In this document: positions 89 to 33,000 of the stretch, one piece after another
Layout: every line of letters begins with the position of its first letter
How positions within the stretch are numbered: the stretch's first letter is position 1
Origin: Clostridia bacterium
GTDB lineage: Bacteria; Bacillota; Clostridia; Lachnospirales; Anaerotignaceae
Assembly: GCA_022651385.1 (NCBI GenBank)
Contig: JALCQR010000015.1
Coordinates: forward strand, 1 to 38,916
Direction of reading: 5' to 3'
Length of the DNA: 38,916 bases
Made by a program: the position numbers and the translations under genes
Notes under the pieces: model-generated
The model's database searches: none
What the model was told of the DNA's origin: nothing
The model's input: only the letters and a program-made list of their open reading frames with translations

Positions 89-1462
89 CTATTTTCCTTC
101 GACCCTTGACATCAATACTACCGTCTCGACGTGTGTGCTAAAACAAAATTGGTCAACGGGCTGAATCTTACTGATTGTATAGCTGTCTTCACACAATATT
201 TTCAAATCTCTTGAAAGAGTAGCAGGATCGCATGAAACATACACAACTTTTTTGGGTTTCATTTTAAGGATTGTGTTAATAACTTCGATATCACAGCCCT
301 TTCTTGGAGGGTCGACAACAATTACATCAGCTTTAAAGCCTTTTTTATATATTTCTGGAACAACTTCCTCTGACGCTCCGCATATAAACTCAGCGTTTTG
401 TATATTATTAATTTGCGCGTTCTTTTTTGCATCCTCTATAGCCTGCGGCACAATCTCAACTCCAATTACCATTTTTGCTTTCTGAGCCAAAAAAAGTGAT
501 ATTGTGCCAATGCCGCAGTATAAATCCAAGACATTTTCATTGCCGTTAAGCCCCGCATAATTTAAGGCTGTTTCATAAAGAACTTTTGTCTGAACAGGAT
601 TTACCTGATAAAAACTGTGGATGGAAATATTAAATTTAACATCTCCTATATAGTCTGTTACATAATCTCTACCCCAAATAACGATGTTTTTTTTGCCTAA
701 AATAACGTTCGTTTTTTTTGTATTAATATTTAATACTATACCTTTAAGACCTTCAATTTGTCCGAGATTTTCAATAAGTTTCTTTGCCTTTGGAAGGCTC
801 TTTCCATTTATAACGATACAAACAAGAATTTCATCTGTGTAAAAGCCAATTCTTGTCATTACATGCCTTATAAGTCCGTTTCCCGTTTCTTCATTATAAG
901 CGGAAATATTTTCTGTTTGTATAAAATTTCTAATAATTTCTATTATTTTTCTATTTGCCCTATGCTGTATAATACAGTTATTGTTGTCTATAATTTCGTG
1001 GCTGTGCCCGACATAAAATCCAATTCTTAATCCGTCTTTATATTCTCCCACAGGATATTGAGCTTTATTTCTATAGTTATACGGATTTTCCATGCCGATA
1101 CATTTTTTAACATCTGGATTATTGAATTTGCCAATACGTGTAAGTGCATCATATACTTTTTTTGTCTTAAAGTCAATTTGGGCGCTATATTTCAAATGTT
1201 GAAGCGTACAGCCTCCGCATCTTTTCGCAACTTGACAAAGCGGTTCAATTCTACTTTTTGAAGGAGTTAATATTTCAAGTGCTTTCCCATATGCAAAATG
1301 TTTTTTTACTTTAATAATTTTTACTTTTACTTTTTCACCGGGAAGAACATTTTTTACAAAAACTGTGAATTCATCAATTTTTCCTATACCCTCCCCGTCA
1401 TTCCCTATATCATTAATCTCAATAAAATAATCCTTGTTTTTTTCAACAGGACAAATACTCAT
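89..1462 (-). CDS. rlmD: 23S rRNA (uracil-5-)-methyltransferase, RlmD/RlmCD (RumA) family
   Basis: Transfers a methyl group from S-adenosylmethionine to C5 of a uridine in 23S rRNA. The 457-residue protein has an N-terminal TRAM-type RNA-binding domain (about 8-65), the iron-sulfur cysteines C76, C82, C85 (in RCGGCTLQHL) and C163, a SAM-binding loop VLDLYCGIGT, the VVDPPRKG motif and the catalytic Cys411 in YVSCDPATL. Gram-positive members often modify two sites (RlmCD), so the exact target is open. The start is supported by GAGGAAA upstream of ATG, just after the stop of the preceding nuclease gene, which suggests a shared operon with yhaM. The codons from about residue 443 (HVETVVLM onward) are G+C-rich, unlike the rest of the gene; the C-terminus may have been rewritten by an integrated element. 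Confidence 0.9.
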   Translation of the reverse strand: MSICPVEKNKDYFIEINDIGNDGEGIGKIDEFTVFVKNVLPGEKVKVKIIKVKKHFAYGKALEILTPSKSRIEPLCQVAKRCGGCTLQHLKYSAQIDFKTKKVYDALTRIGKFNNPDVKKCIGMENPYNYRNKAQYPVGEYKDGLRIGFYVGHSHEIIDNNNCIIQHRANRKIIEIIRNFIQTENISAYNEETGNGLIRHVMTRIGFYTDEILVCIVINGKSLPKAKKLIENLGQIEGLKGIVLNINTKKTNVILGKKNIVIWGRDYVTDYIGDVKFNISIHSFYQVNPVQTKVLYETALNYAGLNGNENVLDLYCGIGTISLFLAQKAKMVIGVEIVPQAIEDAKKNAQINNIQNAEFICGASEEVVPEIYKKGFKADVIVVDPPRKGCDIEVINTILKMKPKKVVYVSCDPATLSRDLKILCEDSYTISKIQPVDQFCFSTHVETVVLMSRVEGK

Positions 1463-1471
1463 CGTGTTTCC

Positions 1472-2032
1472 TCATTTCTCACAAAATTCGCATACAGTTC
1501 CCCTGCATATGCAATATCTGCATTTTGCATAATCATAGCTGTTATTGATTGGTTTTCCGTTAAGCATTTCACGCATCACATTTATCTTTTTCTCAAGTTC
1601 TCGTCTCAAAGCCTTAGTATTTCTTATATCAAACATGTAATCTTTATATATAAGCCTGCCGAATTTTGGTCTTATTTTGTATTCTTCTTCAGTTATGGCA
1701 AAATAGGCCGCAAGCTGCATTAAATCTCCCTCATGCGGAAAGCTTTCGTTTTTTATACACCCGCTTTTGATTTCCACAGGCACTATATGATTTGAGTAAT
1801 TGCTTTCAAATATAAAATCAGGTTTGCCCTGTATATCAAGTTTTTCACATTTAAGTATTGTACTGTATTCAATATCTTCCTGCTTCTTTTTTGGCCTTGC
1901 ATCGGAATAAATGACGTGAAAATGTTTCATGTCAAAATTCGAATGTCTTTTTGTAATATTTTTTGGCGCAATAATACGTATTATAAAAATTAAGGCCAAA
2001 AGGAAAGCAGCAAAAATGTAAAATTTATCCAA
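1472..2032 (-). CDS. Membrane-anchored Cas4/RecB-like PD-(D/E)XK protein, C-terminal half
   Basis: This 186-residue protein begins with a membrane segment (about 4-21) and continues with the catalytic core expected of a Cas4/Dna2-type nuclease: D72 in GKPDFIFE (motif II), E87-x-K89 in VPVEIKSG (motif III), a QxxxY motif at Q106-Y110, and C-terminal cysteines C171, C174, C176, C181 and C184 that could ligate an iron-sulfur cluster. It lacks the N-terminal cysteine and motif-I histidine of the family; both are present in the gene just upstream, with which it overlaps by 8 bp. The start is TTG with AAGGA nine bases before it, lying inside the upstream gene, so translational coupling is likely. 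The two proteins may form one active site at the membrane. It sits between yhaM and rlmD in one operon. Nuclease activity is inferred from motifs only. Confidence 0.72.
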   Translation of the reverse strand: MDKFYIFAAFLLALIFIIRIIAPKNITKRHSNFDMKHFHVIYSDARPKKKQEDIEYSTILKCEKLDIQGKPDFIFESNYSNHIVPVEIKSGCIKNESFPHEGDLMQLAAYFAITEEEYKIRPKFGRLIYKDYMFDIRNTKALRRELEKKINVMREMLNGKPINNSYDYAKCRYCICRGTVCEFCEK

Positions 2033-2327
2033 AATATTTCATCCTTATATATACACCTATTGCAATAAGCAAAATAATAAATAAAATCAAAGCTATTTTT
2101 TTAACTTTAAGCCATCTGTTAAATTTAACACGGCTGTGAAATTCGCTTCCCTTTTTAAAATTGCTTAGTCTGCTGTCGGTAAGTCCAAGCTCACTGTTAA
2201 GCTCTTTTTTCATTAATGACAGTTCTTTTCTTCCATATACGCGTTCATAGTACCATTGATACGGACAATAGCAAAATTTGTTTATCTCGTTTGCTGTAAC
2301 GGTATGTTTCTTATCTTTTATTTCCAT
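2025..2327 (-). CDS. Small membrane protein with Cas4-like N-terminal motifs, partner of the next gene
   Basis: The 100-residue protein has a cysteine/aromatic motif at 18-31 (FCYCPYQWYYERVY; C19 and C21), as seen at the N-terminus of Cas4 and related nucleases, then H64 in GSEFHSRV resembling the motif-I histidine, then a single membrane segment (about 76-93). Motif II, motif III and the distal cysteines are missing, but follow in the overlapping downstream gene, whose product starts with its own membrane segment. Together the pair would form a hairpin through the membrane with both nuclease parts in the cytoplasm. The ATG lies 5 bp after the yhaM stop and has only a weak ribosome-binding site, suggesting coupling to yhaM. 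Alone, the protein would not be recognised as an enzyme; the assignment depends on the pair. Confidence 0.65.
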   Translation of the reverse strand: MEIKDKKHTVTANEINKFCYCPYQWYYERVYGRKELSLMKKELNSELGLTDSRLSNFKKGSEFHSRVKFNRWLKVKKIALILFIILLIAIGVYIRMKYFG

Positions 2328-2332
2328 AATAA

Positions 2333-3298
2333 TTAAAATTCAGTTTTTCTTATATTTCTTTGAAGCATTTTGCTGTATCCTACCCATCTTCCGCTTGTAT
2401 TATTTGTATCAATTATTTCTTCTATAGCTTTTACTTTAGCATCCATATTATCGGCACAGTGCAAAATAAAGGCCTCAATGGTTTTAGGCAGCTCAGGCGA
2501 GCCATATTCATATTCTCCGTGATGAGAAAGTATACAATGCTTTATAAGAGATTCAAGTTCTTTTGGAAATCCATCAATTTTCGACGCTGCGTCATGAATC
2601 ATTTCGGCCCCTATTACAATATGTCCGAGCAACTGGCCATCGTCTGTATATTCATTCACAGGGAATTTTGAAAGTTCGTAAATTTTGCCGATATCATGAA
2701 GCATAGCACAGCAAATAAGCAAATCCCTGTTTACTCTTTTATATCTTCCGCTCATAAAATCGCATATTTCAGTTACTGAAAGTGTGTGTTCAAGAAGTCC
2801 CCCAAGGTAACCGTGATGTAAGGTTCTTGCCGCCGAATGGCTTTTTATATTTGCCGCAACAATTTTATCATCTTTAAATATACTTATAAGCAGCTGTTTT
2901 ATATATTTATTGCTTATGGTATCAATATACCCAATAAGTTTTTTATACATATCGTCGGTATTTTTTTCAGTACTTGGAATATAATCCATAGGATCATATT
3001 CTCCCTCAAGACTCTTGCGTATTTTTCTGATATTTATCTGAGGCTCGTTATTATAAATAAGAACAGTTCCGTCAACTTTTATAAAATCGTTTTCATCAAA
3101 ACTTTTAATTTCATTGTTAAGATCCCAGACTTTTCCGTCAAGCATTCCTGTCTTATCCTGAAGTTTTAAAGAATAATAGCTTTTGCCGGCTCTTGATTTC
3201 AAAACTTGTTTTGATTTACAGAGATAGTGGCCTACGACATTTTCGCCTTCTCTTAATTCATTTATGTATCTCAATTTGCTACACCGCTTTCTTTTCAT
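2333..3298 (-). CDS. yhaM: 3'-5' exoribonuclease YhaM family (OB-fold plus HD domain)
   Basis: YhaM trims RNA, and in some reports single-stranded DNA, from the 3' end. The 321-residue length is close to the Bacillus protein. An N-terminal OB-fold (about 18-95, with LKLQDKTG and KVWD) precedes a metal-dependent HD phosphohydrolase domain: H171 in LLEHTLSV, H201-D202 in AMLHDIGK, H259-H260 in LSHHGEYE and D283 in HCADNMDA. It heads an operon with the two nuclease-like genes and rlmD. A strong promoter ends only about 10 bp before the ATG, so the transcript may begin almost at the start codon; either the mRNA is nearly leaderless or translation starts slightly inside, for example at codon 9 (TTG). 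Confidence 0.9.
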   Translation of the reverse strand: MKRKRCSKLRYINELREGENVVGHYLCKSKQVLKSRAGKSYYSLKLQDKTGMLDGKVWDLNNEIKSFDENDFIKVDGTVLIYNNEPQINIRKIRKSLEGEYDPMDYIPSTEKNTDDMYKKLIGYIDTISNKYIKQLLISIFKDDKIVAANIKSHSAARTLHHGYLGGLLEHTLSVTEICDFMSGRYKRVNRDLLICCAMLHDIGKIYELSKFPVNEYTDDGQLLGHIVIGAEMIHDAASKIDGFPKELESLIKHCILSHHGEYEYGSPELPKTIEAFILHCADNMDAKVKAIEEIIDTNNTSGRWVGYSKMLQRNIRKTEF

Positions 3299-3307
3299 TT
3301 ATGCACT

Positions 3308-3336
3308 ATTATACTATATTAATCAGCTTTTCTCAA
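3308..3336 (-). promoter_or_regulatory. Sigma-A-type promoter of yhaM
   Basis: On the minus strand TTGAGA, a 17-bp spacer, then a perfect TATAAT. The predicted transcription start falls about 3 bases before the yhaM ATG at 3298, leaving no room for a ribosome-binding site. Confidence 0.7.
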
Positions 3337-3345
3337 ATAAATATA

Positions 3346-3374
3346 CAAAAAAATCCGCCTGTCTATACAGGCGG
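3346..3374 (-). terminator. Rho-independent terminator of panB
   Basis: A perfect 8-bp stem (CCGCCTGT / ACAGGCGG) with a 4-base loop is followed on the minus strand by a run of seven T. It lies 48 bp past the panB stop codon. Confidence 0.88.
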
Positions 3375-3421
3375 AAACGGTCTGCCAAAAAAGTCATCTT
3401 AATGTTACAATGAACTTACAA

Positions 3422-25678: not shown

Positions 25679-28432
25679 TTATCTAATCTCAATATAGCTT
25701 CCTGAGCGTGTTTTTTTGACTAAAATTTGCCTTTCTATACGATTCTTCAGTTCATTTACATGTGATATAACTCCGATAGTCATGTTTCCATTTGCGACAG
25801 ACAGAAGAGCCGTTATCGCCTTATCAAGAGTTTCATCATCAAGATTTCCGAAACCTTCATCAACAAACATGGATTCTATTTTAATTCCTCCGGCCGTCTG
25901 CTGTATTTCATCTGAAAGACCGAGAGCAAGACAAAGAGAAGCCATAAAGGACTCCCCTCCTGACAGCGTTTTTACACTCCGCAACGTATCGCTGTAGTGG
26001 TCATATACATCAAGGTCAAGACCGGCATTTGTACGTATGTTTTCGCTCGTTTTTTTTCTTCGCAGTTCATATCGTCCGTTTGTCATTGAAATAAAGCGCC
26101 TGTTGGCATGAATCACTATTTTATCAAAGTATGCAGCCTGAACATATGTCTCAAGCTTAATTTTCTCCTTGCCTGCTGCCGTTCCGTTTGCCGTGTTATA
26201 TAAAGGCTGAAGCCATTTAAGTTCATAATCGGATTTTTCAATTTTTTCTTTTATAATACATATTTTGTTATACACTCTATTATTTACGTTTATATTAACT
26301 GCTAAATTGTCTTTAATTGTACTGTGTTTCTCTTTTTCGTCCACAAAATTAGATATTTGTGTTTTTATAATGTCAATATTATCTTCAGGAAGACTTCGAA
26401 TCTGTTTTTTAAGCGTCTCTATCTGAGTTTGACAAATGCTTAACTGCTTTTCAGCCAGTTCTTTTTTCTCAACTATATCGTTAATGGTTTTTTCATATTT
26501 GCTTTTAATATCTGTTTTTTCTTTTATATCATTAAGAATATCATTTATTTTACTATATCCTATTTTTTTAATTTCTTCTTTTATTTGTTCATTTAAACTT
26601 TTATAATACGCCGATTTTGAAGCTGTTTTTTCTGTCAATTCTTTTGTTTTTTTCTCATTGTCAGCCTTTTTTGTTTCAAGCATTTCTATATTTTTTTCTG
26701 CAGAATGGTACTGGGATACATCGTTTTTTAAAGACTGCTCTTTAATATTTGTTTCAGAAAGTATTTGTTTTAGCTCATCTTTTTTATTATTTAATACATG
26801 CTGTATAGAATCAGTTTCAATTTCGGGATAAAGCCTTTTAAAACTATTTTTAATATTTTCTTCAAGCGCCTTCATGCGTCCGGCTTTTTCACCTGATTTT
26901 TGACTTAAATCAGAAGCATCTTTTTCTGCATATTCACATTTTTTTCTTAAACTTTCTATGTTGATTTTATCCGGAGCATCTTTAATCAAAACGGCAATAT
27001 GCGGATGTGTGGTTGAACCGCACACTGGACAAGGCATATCATCCCTTAATTCCTGAGCTATTATTCCGGCCTGCGCATCAAGAAAGATTTTCCTTTTTTG
27101 TTCATATTCGGTAGATATTTCATCCAAAATCAAACTTGCAGACTCGTATTTTTTTCTTATCTTTTTATGCTCACAACGGGCTTTTTTATATTCGTCTATG
27201 TCTTCTTGAATTTTATTTATAGTATTAAGCATAAAGTTAATATCTTTTATTGAATTTTCAATTTTAATTAAATTTGACTGAGAATCTTTAAGCTTTTCTT
27301 TTTTAGATTTTTCAGAGCACAGCTTTTCCACTATGTTCTTTCCTTCCTGTTCCATATAAGAAAGCTGCTTATTTAAAAGTAAATATTCTTTTTCTGCCTG
27401 TTCGGTATTTTTTCTTTTTTCCTCAATTGTCTTAAATCTTTCAGCCTTGCTGTTAAGCAAAGTCACTTCCTCACTAAGTTTTTTTATTTCATCTTCGTGA
27501 AGTTTTGCTCTTTCCAATTCTGTTTTTGATTCATCTAATGATTTTATATTTTCAGTTTTTGTTTTTTCAAGTTTAAAAATATCAGATTTAAGTTTAAGAG
27601 CTTTTTTGATATCATTAAGTTTTATGCTTAAGGTGTTTATTTTTTCTTCAATTTCCGAAATAATTTCGGTGTTTTTTTTAGCTTCCGATTCTTCGCTAAC
27701 TATTTGTTCTTTTAATTTTTCTAATATTATTGAAATGTCACTGAAAGGCCCGCTGTTTTTAATTATTGATTCAAAATCACTGCCCTTTTCAGGCTTGGTT
27801 TCTAAAAACGTATCGGCAAGTTTTGACCTTAAATTTTGGTTTTCATTTTTTGAATTTAGATACTTGTCTTTAATTTTTTCCTGCATAATGTTGAAAATAT
27901 CTGTGGAAAATATTTTTCTCAGTATTTCAGACCTTTCGTTTGTCGGTGCCAAAAGCAGGTTTAAAAATTCACCCTGAGAAATCATCATTGTTTGTGAAAA
28001 CTGTTCTTTTGTAAGTCCAATTATGCTTTCAACAGCAGACGTCACGTTTTTTTGTCCGGTTATTGTTTTTTCCGAAGTTTCAAGGACTGCATCACTTTTT
28101 TCAATGACTTGTGCGTTTCCCCGTTTAGACTTTCTCATATACTCCGGATTTCTTTTAAGTCTGTATTTTTTACCTCTGTATAAAAATTCCAGTTCAACAA
28201 ATGTAGGCACATCAATAGACGCATATCTGCACCTAAACATGTACGGCTCTCTGTATTGTCCGCTTGCCTCGCCGTACAGGGCAAATGTAATTGCGTCAAA
28301 GATAGTTGTTTTGCCTGCCCCCGTGTCACCTGTAATAAGATATAAGCCGCCATCTGAAAACTTTGACATGTTTATTGCCGTTTTATCGGCATACGGTCCA
28401 AAAGCCGAAATTGTAAGATTAATAAGCTTCAT
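25679..28432 (-). CDS. sbcC: Nuclease SbcCD, ATPase subunit SbcC
   Basis: Rad50-like SMC ATPase that works with SbcD to cut hairpins and blocked DNA ends. The 917-residue protein has an N-terminal Walker A (LITGDTGAGKTTIFDAI, about 32-48), long coiled coils on both sides of a zinc hook (CPVCGS, near residue 468), the ABC signature TLSGGESFMASLCLALGL and Walker B SMFVDEGFGNLDDETL near the C-terminus. The start overlaps the sbcD stop as ATGA. It is somewhat shorter than the E. coli protein because of shorter coils, which is common in Clostridia. Confidence 0.95.
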   Translation of the reverse strand: MKLINLTISAFGPYADKTAINMSKFSDGGLYLITGDTGAGKTTIFDAITFALYGEASGQYREPYMFRCRYASIDVPTFVELEFLYRGKKYRLKRNPEYMRKSKRGNAQVIEKSDAVLETSEKTITGQKNVTSAVESIIGLTKEQFSQTMMISQGEFLNLLLAPTNERSEILRKIFSTDIFNIMQEKIKDKYLNSKNENQNLRSKLADTFLETKPEKGSDFESIIKNSGPFSDISIILEKLKEQIVSEESEAKKNTEIISEIEEKINTLSIKLNDIKKALKLKSDIFKLEKTKTENIKSLDESKTELERAKLHEDEIKKLSEEVTLLNSKAERFKTIEEKRKNTEQAEKEYLLLNKQLSYMEQEGKNIVEKLCSEKSKKEKLKDSQSNLIKIENSIKDINFMLNTINKIQEDIDEYKKARCEHKKIRKKYESASLILDEISTEYEQKRKIFLDAQAGIIAQELRDDMPCPVCGSTTHPHIAVLIKDAPDKINIESLRKKCEYAEKDASDLSQKSGEKAGRMKALEENIKNSFKRLYPEIETDSIQHVLNNKKDELKQILSETNIKEQSLKNDVSQYHSAEKNIEMLETKKADNEKKTKELTEKTASKSAYYKSLNEQIKEEIKKIGYSKINDILNDIKEKTDIKSKYEKTINDIVEKKELAEKQLSICQTQIETLKKQIRSLPEDNIDIIKTQISNFVDEKEKHSTIKDNLAVNINVNNRVYNKICIIKEKIEKSDYELKWLQPLYNTANGTAAGKEKIKLETYVQAAYFDKIVIHANRRFISMTNGRYELRRKKTSENIRTNAGLDLDVYDHYSDTLRSVKTLSGGESFMASLCLALGLSDEIQQTAGGIKIESMFVDEGFGNLDDETLDKAITALLSVANGNMTIGVISHVNELKNRIERQILVKKTRSGSYIEIR

Positions 28433-29565
28433 TTTGCGTTTCCCCCAATTCCGTCAATAACATGTTTAATAAATTCAGACTGAGCTTTGTTTAAATCAGT
28501 TCCGTTTTGAAGTTTATAAAAATCATTAAAAATCTCAAATGGTGATTTCATTTCAGAAATGTTTTCAAAATCTGTATCGCAATGTGTTTTGCTTCTTATA
28601 TTGTCATAATCAAACCGCATAATGTTGGGATACACTTCTCTTAAAATCTCATAAGCGTTCGGAATTTCTTCTTCATTTGTCAAAGTTACGTGGAGATAAT
28701 CAAACCTGTTTTTTTCAGTATAGTTTTTCATTGACATAAGTTCATCATATGTACCTTTAATTTCGCGCATATCCCTAATTGGATGAAGCAATATCTTATC
28801 AATTTTAATATTGTTTTTTTCATTAAGCTCAACTATTAATACTCCCTTTTTATGATGTGATTCCGAAAAAGAATACTTAAGCGGTGTACCGCAGTAGCGT
28901 ATATTTTCTTTACTTACAAATTGGGCTCCGTGAATATGTCCGAGAGCAGTATAGTCGAACTTTGAAAATAACGAGCTGTCAATATTATCAAGGCCTCCAA
29001 TACTCACTTCCTCTGAATCACATCTCAAGGCACCAGTTACAAATTGGTGGCACACCAAAACATTTCTTTCAAAAGTATTTATATCAATGCTTTCCAAAAT
29101 TGTATTAATGGCGTCGTTATAGCTTTCAATTTGTGCTTCCGGATAAAACCTCCTAACGACAGCTGGTTTAATAAACGGAAGCAGAAAAAAATTTATATTT
29201 CCGTATTTATCATTTAACTTTACTTTTTTAACTTTACCGTCAAAAACGGGTGAAATGTAAATTTTGTCTTTATCAAGAATGTTTGACGCAAAGGCTATGC
29301 GCTCTGGCGCATCATGATTGCCGCTTATCATTAACACTATTTTACCCTTGTTTGAAAGAGCCGTTAGAAAACTGTCAAAAAGTTCGACTGCTTCAAGCGG
29401 CGGCACACCTCTGTCATATATGTCTCCGGCAATAACAACTGCCTCAACGTCTGTTTCATCAACAATTCCAAGTATTTCAGACAATATTGCTTTTTGGTCG
29501 TCAAGCATAGAAAACTCATTAACTTTCTTTCCGATATGTAAATCAGAAATGTGCATAAATTTCAT
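28429..29565 (-). CDS. sbcD: Nuclease SbcCD, nuclease subunit SbcD
   Basis: Mre11-like manganese phosphoesterase, 378 residues, partner of SbcC in DNA end processing. All metal-binding motifs are present: HISDLHIGK, VIAGDIYDRGVPP, MISGNHDAPER, VCHQFV and TALGHIHGAQ. The C-terminal 100 residues form the capping/SbcC-binding region. Translational coupling to sbcC is shown by the 4-bp ATGA overlap. The gene has a divergent promoter that overlaps the tRNA-Thr promoter. Confidence 0.95.
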   Translation of the reverse strand: MKFMHISDLHIGKKVNEFSMLDDQKAILSEILGIVDETDVEAVVIAGDIYDRGVPPLEAVELFDSFLTALSNKGKIVLMISGNHDAPERIAFASNILDKDKIYISPVFDGKVKKVKLNDKYGNINFFLLPFIKPAVVRRFYPEAQIESYNDAINTILESIDINTFERNVLVCHQFVTGALRCDSEEVSIGGLDNIDSSLFSKFDYTALGHIHGAQFVSKENIRYCGTPLKYSFSESHHKKGVLIVELNEKNNIKIDKILLHPIRDMREIKGTYDELMSMKNYTEKNRFDYLHVTLTNEEEIPNAYEILREVYPNIMRFDYDNIRSKTHCDTDFENISEMKSPFEIFNDFYKLQNGTDLNKAQSEFIKHVIDGIGGNAK

Positions 29566-30065: not shown

Positions 30066-33000
30066 TCAATCATAGTCATTAACCACCTTCGGCTGTGAAT
30101 CCTCTTGGTGTAATTTTCCAAAGTAATCTGTAAATCCAGTAAACTTTGTATCATAATGGCGATGGAATTTCATCATCATATCACCATTTTTAATAGCCTC
30201 TTTAATCTTGATAGAATCTTCTATGACTGCATTAGGGCAGAAAACATAAGTTGTAAGTTGATTCATACTATCATAGTAATAATAGTCTGTATGATAGAAT
30301 TGACTTCCGAATAGTGATGTCCAAGTTGAACCGCCATCAAATGAGATCTCAAAATCGCCAGGTAGTACATCTTTATAACTACAGTTTGATACAGTAAAGG
30401 ATAACATGTCATTAGTATAATCATAGTCGGCAAACTTATAATCAAAATCTCCTTCTGTCTCAAACCCCTTAGCACTCGCCTTTAAACCATTATCATTAAG
30501 TAGCGATTGAACATCGTAACCTACATTAGTAATAGTTACATCAGACATAGAGATACCATCCTCTAAATTAACACTATCCGGTGTTAAGCCTGTTTCAATG
30601 TAAATTTCATGCTGCCAAATATTTTTTGTTAACAGCTCTGCATTCTTTATTATACCATTTATACTTGCTGTTCCACTATATGTACCACCATTTCCGTTAG
30701 GATACGAATATGAAATCGTTAAATCCTTTAAACTTATGTTGTAGACTGGTTCATCATAGACATCAATATAAATTTTACTTCTATCCGAACTTACTGTAGC
30801 CTCATCTTCAAAGACAGGTGAATCCTCATAATGTAAGACTACTGTCTCAGAATTATATTTTTGGAGTATTTTACTTGTATCTTGTGTAACAAAATCATTT
30901 TCAATATTTCCAAGCTTAATACCTGTGTAATTATTTTCGTCAACTGTATAACCCGATACATGAAGTGTAAACCGAGTAAAGTTATTACCGTCACTGTTCA
31001 CAGTATCCATCTCAACGGAGTCTATAGTTGCGCCTGCGTTTGCACCTGTAAATACAAAATCATCTTTCAAATTCAAATCTGGATTGTCATAATTTTTATA
31101 TACAGCAGGTGAAACAATAAGTCCAACTTCCGTCGTATCTTTTCCTAAATACATATAATTTCTATCAACTGCCCTTTCACAATACATATACACACTGTTA
31201 TCAGAAACTTCTCTAGAATCTTTCGATACATTCATAACGTAAGGTGCATTCAGTGTACCATCTGCATTTTCAACAGCAAAAGCAATATCGACATTTGTAT
31301 CACTTATATTTCCGTTATAGGTAAAGTTAATGCAATACGAGCTGCTGGTTGTACATACCGTATGTGTTTTATTGTCAGTAATATTTATCCAATCCGCATA
31401 CTTAGAACTGTCTACTACAAACTCATTCACAGGACCATGACCCTCTGAAATATCCTTTGCAGTAATAATGTCTTTATTGATATTATAATCCATAATCATA
31501 TAAACACGACATGGATTGCTGTCACTTGCATCTTTTAATGCAAAGGAAATGTTAAACATGTCTCCACAACTTCTGTCTTTGCCTAAATAATCAACCACAG
31601 GAACACTTGCAAAGCCATATTTTGCTAACCTAGCTAATTCATCTGAAACAGTTACAGTACAAGTATCTGTATAACAGTTATCTGCTGTGCCATAAAGTGT
31701 ACCTGTAATTGTTGCTGTGCCTGCTGAATGCGCTGTGATTACACCGTCTGCTGAAACTGTTGCCACCGATTCATCACTTGATGTCCAAGTAATTTCTGGA
31801 TTAGTATCTGAACCTGCTTTTGCAGAAAAAGTTAAAGTATATGCTGGGCATGATGTAGTTTCCATGCTGACTGACTCTTGAGAAATTCTAAAATAGTAGT
31901 CAGAATCATCACTGTAATCTGAAACTATAACAGTACAGGAATCTGTAGAATAACTATCTGTTCTGCCAGAAATTGTTCCTGTTATTACAGTTACACCAAC
32001 TGAATGAACTGTAACTACACCGCCAGTTGAAACTGTTGCCACCGATTCATCACTTGATGTCCAAACAATTTCTGGATTAGTATCTGAACCTGCTTTTGCA
32101 GAATAATTTAAAGTATAAGCAGAGCCTGTTGTAAAGTCAATGTTCAATTTACTCTCAGCAATTCTAAAATAATAGTTACTAGTAGATGAATCATCGGAAG
32201 AATCACTGCTATCTGATGAAGATGAGCCATCCGATGAAGTTGAACCCCCTGAGTTTTGCCCACTTGTTGAATCTGTTCCACCAGCAATATCTTTACCGTT
32301 AATTTCAGTTCCATCTACATTTGAACCAACTTGATAATGATGTACTCTCAAATTTACTATAATATTATTGGCAAAAATATTTAGATCTGTAATATCGCCG
32401 TTTCCATCAAATCCACAGTCACTTGCATTGATTCCAACGTTAACACTTCTAATTGTACCTGATTTTAAATTGATCCGAGTATTGCGTCTATTGATACTTA
32501 CGGCATTGAAACCACCATTTAAACTGATAGCAAATCTAGGTCCATTATCTGAATCTAATACACTTACATCTCCAAAACCATCGCCAGTTAAACCTGACTC
32601 ATCCAAAATTGCAGAACTCTTCAATATTGTTTTCGGTAAATTCGTATCCCCCGTTACAACTATATGAACAGTACTTGACATCTTTTCAATAATAAACTCC
32701 TTTTCACCGATAACATTATTAAAATGAAGCGAATTTTCGCCGCCGCCTTTTACAATAATATCGCCTGCAACATTAACATCTTCAAGTGTAACATCACCTT
32801 CGCCAACTCCCTCAGCGATGTATAAATCTCCATTAATTGTAGCATTTGAAAGTGTTACTCCTGCTTTCGCAATTGTTACGTTACCGTCAAATTCTTTAGA
32901 CATTTTACTGTCATCATTAAGTATATAGCCAAATACTTTTTTAAGTAAAGCAACCGTCTCTGCTCTGGTAATGTTTTTTGAAAGACGAAGTGTTCCGTCT

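Follow-up and report, generated by a model that had tools for sequence, protein, structure and literature searches.

RecB-like nucleases that hold an iron–sulfur (Fe–S) cluster include the AddAB/AdnAB, Dna2 and Exo5 enzymes, whose fold is predicted to be shared by the gene pair described here. In their structures the nuclease part is one chain, in several of them joined to a helicase, and we know of none with a membrane hairpin. The closest described system is the CRISPR Cas4 nuclease (PF01930/TIGR00372; structures 7mi4, 7mi5, 8d3l, 8d3q, 4ic1 and 4r5q), with which the pair shares the motif I histidine, the aspartate, the ExK and QxxxY motifs and a set of one plus three cysteines, as well as the predicted fold of natural fusions of the two genes. 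It differs from CRISPR Cas4 in consisting of two proteins, in carrying membrane helices in the interval from motif I to motif II, and in that cas1 and cas2 do not adjoin it in the window (the whole 38,916-nucleotide stretch of Clostridia bacterium DNA that was analysed). Soluble Cas4 is described as using one N-terminal and three C-terminal cysteines for its cluster and His, Asp and Glu residues for metal; it cuts single-stranded DNA, for which residues of motif II, motif III and QxxxY are needed (PMC4176176). This set of cysteines and metal ligands is the one that we found divided between two genes, here called A and B.

Cas4 genes outside CRISPR loci, a property shared by the pair, have been catalogued as solo-Cas4 (Hudaiberdiev et al. 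2017, PMC5704561). That paper reports a monophyletic solo-Cas4 group in most Thermoanaerobacteriales and many Chloroflexi. We infer that the Thermoanaerobacteriales members are probably B halves like the one described here. As far as the text of PMC5704561 was available, ‘split’ and ‘truncat’ are absent from the main text and ‘membrane’ occurs once, for another gene; its searched passages make no mention of gene A. Other stand-alone relatives of Cas4 are the Argonaute-associated ACE1 (9iab and 9iac; a structural match with Z scores of 8.2 to 10.1), which going by its structure titles is neither split nor equipped with a membrane helix, and a Cas4-like nuclease of Synechococcus, for which neither ‘membrane’ nor a split was found in the accessible part of PMC10653904.

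Genes A and B lie on the minus strand of the window. Gene A (2025..2327; 100 aa, ATG start) encodes an N-terminal Cas4 half with a predicted C-terminal membrane helix, and gene B (1472..2032; 186 aa, TTG start) a C-terminal Cas4 half with a predicted N-terminal membrane helix. The original prediction, that two overlapping genes divide between them the motif set of a single nuclease, was borne out, since both reading frames and all the residues it named are present. In A, cysteine C21 (2265-2267) and the motif I G60...H64 (histidine at 2136-2138) precede the helix (2046..2099, minus strand; residues 77-94 approximately, ends placed by eye), the nuclease side of which is rich in K/R. In B, the helix (1973..2023, minus strand; residues 4-20 approximately, ends likewise by eye) is followed by D72 of GKPD (1817-1819), E87/K89 of ExK (1766-1774), Q106/Y110 and the cysteines C171/C174/C176/C181. 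The end of A and the start of B overlap by 8 nt in different frames (2025..2032, minus strand), where the two genes are likely to be translationally coupled.

Upstream of A on the same strand lies yhaM (2333..3298), encoding a 3'-5' exonuclease with OB fold and HD domain, and downstream of B lies rlmD (89..1462, minus strand), encoding the 23S rRNA U1939 methyltransferase. Directly ahead of yhaM we noticed a sigma-70-like promoter (3308..3336, minus strand), which is a consensus match only, at 11/12 positions; on the minus strand it ranks first from panB to the start of the window, ahead of 10/12 matches inside yhaM, B and rlmD, and the scan found 29 sites when 19.7 were expected by chance. 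A terminator-like hairpin (3354..3375, minus strand), also a consensus match only, follows panB and separates it from the yhaM genes, in a scan that found 3 when 2.9 were expected. Because of this promoter-like site before yhaM and the terminator-like hairpin after panB, matches that are barely above chance, yhaM, A, B and rlmD likely form one operon. Co-transcription of A and B with yhaM would follow from the gene order and the promoter-like site.

Gene B scored 75.7 bits (E 3.8e-21; cut-off 65) against the NCBIfam model TIGR00372 (cas4), of which it covers positions 31-179 of 180, and 25.9 bits against PF01930 (cut-off 22.7). Matches of A were weak and limited to the N-terminal ends of models, namely PADLOC Cas4d at positions 3-35 and 2-30 (E 0.002-0.003), with a further match to PF12705 (E 0.008) below the cut-off; TIGR00372 did not match A at E values up to 1, and thus not at the family cut-off. 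An HTH_19 identity of A (24.5 bits, cut-off 30.2) was considered and set aside; this match covers residues 33-74, including motif I. The corresponding pair on a Bacillus subtilis plasmid tiles TIGR00372 without overlap, A covering positions 1-44 (E 1.8e-4) and B positions 61-179 (E 6.5e-16), neither of them reaching the 65-bit cut-off. Below 65 bits as well are B from archaea (59.8), Acidobacteriota (56.1) and the plasmid (58.7), and a natural fusion of A and B (L163, 63.5); an archaeal single chain (L123) scored 74.0 bits. Neither A nor B gave a helicase match, so the pair lacks the feature of AddAB/RecBCD-type UvrD helicase-nucleases. The Cas4 residue features (motif I His, Asp, ExK, QxxxY and four Cys) are all present, spread over A and B, and with two genes in the window the single-chain feature is absent. 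We therefore regard the pair as a variant of the Cas4 family.

The two halves occur together. Among 60 relatives searched, A and B were found in the same 26 genomes. Among 295 genomes of the order, B was present in 82 (81 strong matches and one truncated where its contig ends) and A in 83, which are the same 82 and one more with A at a contig end. Two further genomes gave a weak B match and no A; these matches are ordinary single-chain Cas4s of 203 and 227 aa that have their own N-terminal cysteine and lack the helix. After merging of loci that share identical last 140 residues of B, which reduced 196 loci to 94, residues H64, D72, E87, K89, Q106, Y110, C171, C174 and C181 were kept in 94/94. 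G60 was likewise kept in all 94, C21 in 93 (the exception being L215 with its frameshifted A) and C176 in only 87. Frequent occurrence of one half without the other, or loss of catalytic residues in close relatives, had been named as evidence that would count against the original prediction. Neither was seen, and the conservation of the catalytic residues in every nonredundant locus argues against chance.

The distance between the genes varied. Measured from the longest ORF in 93 nonredundant split pairs (the fused L163 is left out of counts of 93), gaps ranged from -79 to +206, the commonest being -4 (15 pairs), -8 (12) and -14 (7). In one genome (G242, a draft assembly with 5% contamination), A follows yhaM and B precedes rlmD on different contigs, with neither gene at a contig end. 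A frameshifted A next to an intact B was observed in two Thermoanaerobacter(ium) assemblies, L101 (upstream of 3986) and L215 (around 2270), and is either sequencing error or decay.

Membrane helices were called from hydropathy, as a 19-residue mean of at least 1.6. By this measure a clear hydrophobic helix is present in A of 91/93 and in B of 83/93 nonredundant split pairs. The remaining 10 B and 2 A proteins fall below the threshold, and one of these A proteins (L164) ends ahead of its helix, which means that not every pair retains the hairpin. In A the nuclease part is followed by the helix and a short tail; in B a short head and the helix come before the nuclease part. Of the two flanks of the helix, the one next to the nuclease part has more K/R residues in 92/93 A and 88/93 B proteins, with means on the nuclease and the other side of 5.3 versus 0.9 for A and 5.2 versus 0.8 for B. 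This bias predicts that both nuclease parts are on the cytoplasmic side, as had been proposed. Joined end to end, A and B would amount to a Cas4 that carries a membrane hairpin after motif I and before motif II. The distance from the motif I histidine to the aspartate is 99 residues in L163, has an implied median of 110 in split pairs and reaches 177-180 in a group of nine single chains from archaea; for soluble Cas4, the residue numbering of PMC4176176 puts it at 29 in Pcal_0546 and 37 in SSO0001.

Single-chain homologues with an inserted membrane hairpin, for which the original prediction had called for a search, exist in nature. L163 (positions 1344-2171 in genome G097) is a natural A-B fusion, a 275-aa ORF with two hydrophobic helices directly after yhaM, and nine archaeal single chains, 321-327 aa as aligned, carry four hydrophobic stretches in the corresponding position. 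An AlphaFold2 model of L163 (80-row alignment; pLDDT 86.8, pTM 0.78) superposed with VIA-align on 7mi5 over 165 residues (Z 15.7, 3.5 Å), the first and last aligned residues being 3 and 275, on 8d3q over 157 residues (Z 14.0, 2.9 Å), and on six Cas4 entries at 2.9-4.3 Å. Foldseek also returned Cas4 chains as best matches, its long alignments having an rmsd of at least 12 Å and its tight ones (2.6 Å) covering about 135 columns, so that a match both tight and full-length was given only by VIA-align, which omits long stretches of low confidence. For L123, an archaeal four-helix chain (24-row alignment; pLDDT 81.1, pTM 0.72), the match to 7mi4 by VIA-align was closer (Z 19.6, 2.1 Å, 167 residues, from 1 to 322). 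After Cas4, the next matches of these two models were Exo5, AdnA, AddB and Dna2 (VIA-align Z 7.1 to 13.8), which we take to be iron-staple nucleases. Because L163 superposes on Cas4 from its third to its last residue, the prediction is that the A-like part and the B-like part together make up a single Cas4 fold, a statement that applies to the natural single-chain relatives.

Co-variation between A and B did not support a contact in a mean-field coupling analysis of the 66 loci that have A, B, YhaM and RlmD. The ten strongest A-B couplings had a mean of 5.6, and those of the controls, each from three random column draws, were 7.0-7.8 for A-YhaM, 6.0-6.9 for A-RlmD, 5.7-6.0 for YhaM-B and 4.9-5.6 for RlmD-B. 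The A-B couplings thus fall short of both controls that involve A, are close to those of YhaM-B and exceed those of RlmD-B by little, at an effective depth of about 50 that is too small to weigh against contact.

We consider it very likely that the A and B halves form one enzyme, and quite likely that this product is an active DNA nuclease. The full reading, in which A and B are a membrane-tethered Fe–S DNA nuclease assembled in trans from two half-subunits, is in our view probable. On the cytoplasmic side of the membrane, the two proteins would come together as a single nuclease with the Cas4 fold. A would give the first cysteine of the Fe–S cluster and the motif I histidine, and B would bring QxxxY, the metal site of Asp, Glu and Lys, and the remaining three cysteines of the cluster. 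The break falls between motif I and motif II, at the site of the inserted membrane hairpin, and because of this position the helices of A and B would lie against each other and so keep the two halves joined. Like soluble Cas4, the assembled product would be expected to depend on metal and to cut the ends of single-stranded DNA.

A scan of GTDB genomes with B of the window gave 79 loci. Named records with pairs include Anaerotignum, Cellulosilyticum, Epulopiscium, Defluviitalea, Thermoanaerobacter and Thermoanaerobacterium, among others. Among 348 Bacillota genomes, strong B matches were found in five beyond the window's own, four of them Thermoanaerobacter(ium)-like and of one family, the fifth being G344; an A match adjoins each, and one of these A genes is frameshifted. 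Of 32 weaker Bacillota matches 24 were read, and these are single-chain proteins, 190-303 aa long, that lack a hydrophobic helix. In the GTDB scan, Thermoplasmatota had both pairs and single chains, and Acidobacteriota one pair. The B-half profile matches 126/194 Thermoplasmatota genomes, which does not imply the membrane form for all of them. The 30 best-scoring Thermoplasmatota loci comprise 25 split forms, all with an A gene upstream, and 5 single chains, a choice that favours split forms and leaves forms of roughly 400 aa outside the 30. Of 149 Acidobacteriota genomes 22 match; the one strong match, which was the one read, is the known pair, and the other 21 have E values of 1e-16 or weaker.

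A split pair is also carried by the 64.7-kb B. subtilis plasmid NRS6107_2 (NZ_OX419568.1; L304:2631-3369), on which A and B are separated by a spacer. Its annotation names A a hypothetical protein and B a Dna2/Cas4 domain protein. Two more B. subtilis plasmid records hold a B that is 99.4% and 95.7% identical, and A was read in one record only. A phage origin was considered and rejected: B of the window had no match in 50,697 phage records, B of the plasmid had none in phage records either, and viral contigs gave no confirmed match with a single-protein query that reaches close relatives only. In a tree of 65 proteins, the 52 split, fused and four-helix rows form one branch separate from 13 Bacillota Cas4s taken to be ordinary (98/99), all of which lack a hydrophobic helix. 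The L163 fusion is placed among the bacterial split rows, which suggests that it arose by later re-fusion.

Three other explanations of the gene pair have to be weighed against assembly in trans. B alone could be the nuclease, as solo-Cas4 is catalogued, with A only an anchor or regulator. The motif II and III residues are in B, which by itself scores above the Cas4 cut-off, and cysteine mutants of Pcal_0546 and SSO1391 are reported to have lost the cluster and stayed active, while SSO0001 was inactivated by cluster loss (PMC4176176). An anchor would, however, have no need of H64, G60 and C21, which A keeps almost without exception; this B never occurs without A among the 295 genomes, and in the models of fused relatives the A-like part is predicted to complete the fold. 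We judge this explanation improbable. The overlap of A and B in different frames and the frameshifted A of L101 and L215 might instead suggest one gene that was broken by a frameshift or a sequencing error, or that is joined by programmed frameshifting. Such an artefact does not fit the co-occurrence, the residue conservation, the location of A and B on different contigs in G242 or the varied gaps of the 93 pairs; the plasmid genes have a spacer between them and archaea have the same split, and we give this explanation almost no weight. Descent from a CRISPR adaptation Cas4 that had moved away from its locus, to which Cas4 as the best family match would point, is hardly more plausible, since the genome of the window has another Cas4 match beside Cas1, Cas1 was not found in some of the pair-bearing genomes tested, and the membrane forms are a separate branch of the tree.

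By eye, no cas1 or cas2 was seen among the ORFs of the window, and the feature of a CRISPR adaptation Cas4 is thus missing. The claim that no CRISPR genes are near holds for the window but not for the whole genome, in which a Cas4 match lies next to Cas1 on another contig (C16:189-1409, near the contig start). An N-terminal Cas4 match lies near the start of a further contig (C17:88-240). In 15 hand-picked pair-bearing genomes, Cas1 was found in 8 and not found in 7, and as far as tested CRISPR is not required for the pair. Elsewhere in the window, translations read by eye show an SbcC-like (917 aa) and an SbcD-like (378 aa) gene at 25679-29565. Two tandem 260-nt copies, 78% alike, lie at 31641-32176 inside a gene for a 1173-aa product that looks like a secreted SLH-type protein (SLH called by eye).

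Among the 92 bacterial loci with at least 300 nt of flank, yhaM adjoins the pair upstream of A in 79 and rlmD lies downstream of B in 70. The association with yhaM noted in the original prediction is therefore common but not obligatory, and yhaM does not adjoin the pair in the examined Thermoanaerobacter(ium) loci, in the archaeal loci or on the plasmid. In Thermoplasmatota, 8/20 loci have the order smc, kleisin-like gene, A, B and TyrRS, and radB-like and fen1-like genes are near the pair in 6 of these 8. Neighbours in these loci were named by Pfam in L323 and by similarity to L323 in the others, and the kleisin name is weak (Rad21_Rec8 or SMC_ScpA, best E 0.002-0.009, in 3/6 homologues, below the cut-off). 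In L323 (439-6648), which shows this order, the kleisin-like gene overlaps A by 28 nt. In seven of the 20 archaeal loci (L311, L313-L316, L320 and L322) the pair lies beside ABCE1, and a release-factor-like gene (eRF1-like/baeRF10) is beside it in 5/20. A Thermoanaerobacter pair (L112) adjoins a polysaccharide deacetylase, and a helicase, a thermonuclease and a primase-like gene are near the pair of plasmid NRS6107_2.

For the cellular role, these neighbours (yhaM, the smc, kleisin-like, RadB-like and FEN1-like genes, and the helicase and primase-like genes) lead us to favour processing or repair of DNA ends near the membrane, to which we give about an even chance. YhaM is reported to be active on single-stranded DNA (PMC5627055), though it is known mainly for RNA. 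Against a repair role, neighbourhoods differ among clades and include ABCE1, release-factor-like and polysaccharide deacetylase genes, and deletion of yhaM in B. subtilis had no mutator effect (PMC5627055). The main rival is control of incoming DNA, with the assembled nuclease as a guard at the membrane that degrades single-stranded ends of plasmid, transforming or phage DNA entering the cell. This would fit a membrane location, the action of Cas4 on single-stranded DNA (PMC4176176), the independence from CRISPR suggested by the genomes in which Cas1 was not found, and the observation that the Cas4-like nuclease of Synechococcus lowers transfer or maintenance of plasmid RSF1010 (PMC10653904). 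On the other hand, yhaM and rlmD as usual neighbours are unlike a defence island, and the archaeal smc-kleisin context and the presence of the pair itself on a B. subtilis plasmid also speak against it; the lack of a phage-record match for B says little either way. Destruction of entering DNA is thus possible, though we hold it doubtful, and a role other than end processing, repair or destruction of incoming DNA seems unlikely.

Returning to the two-chain nuclease, the original prediction knew of no described system with this layout, and we found no description of a membrane-bound or split Cas4 in the open-access papers searched. The pair is apparently a real and undescribed membrane-bound form of the Cas4 family. 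If its assembly is as proposed, an Fe–S nuclease in which both the cluster and the active site are built from two membrane proteins would be unusual. Both archaea and bacteria have this layout, alongside naturally fused single-chain forms. Tentatively, it may represent an ancient membrane-embedded DNA-end nuclease of archaea and bacteria, switched by side-by-side helices that each carry half of the active site and part of the Fe–S cluster, and linking the membrane with chromosome maintenance (SMC-kleisin in some archaea, YhaM in Lachnospirales-type bacteria). Annotation as it stands can miss one half of such an enzyme, as on the plasmid, where B is named and A is hypothetical. The pair would explain part of the solo-Cas4 set, and the role of this group is directly testable, since the B. 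subtilis plasmid and Thermoanaerobacterium are tractable sources of the genes.
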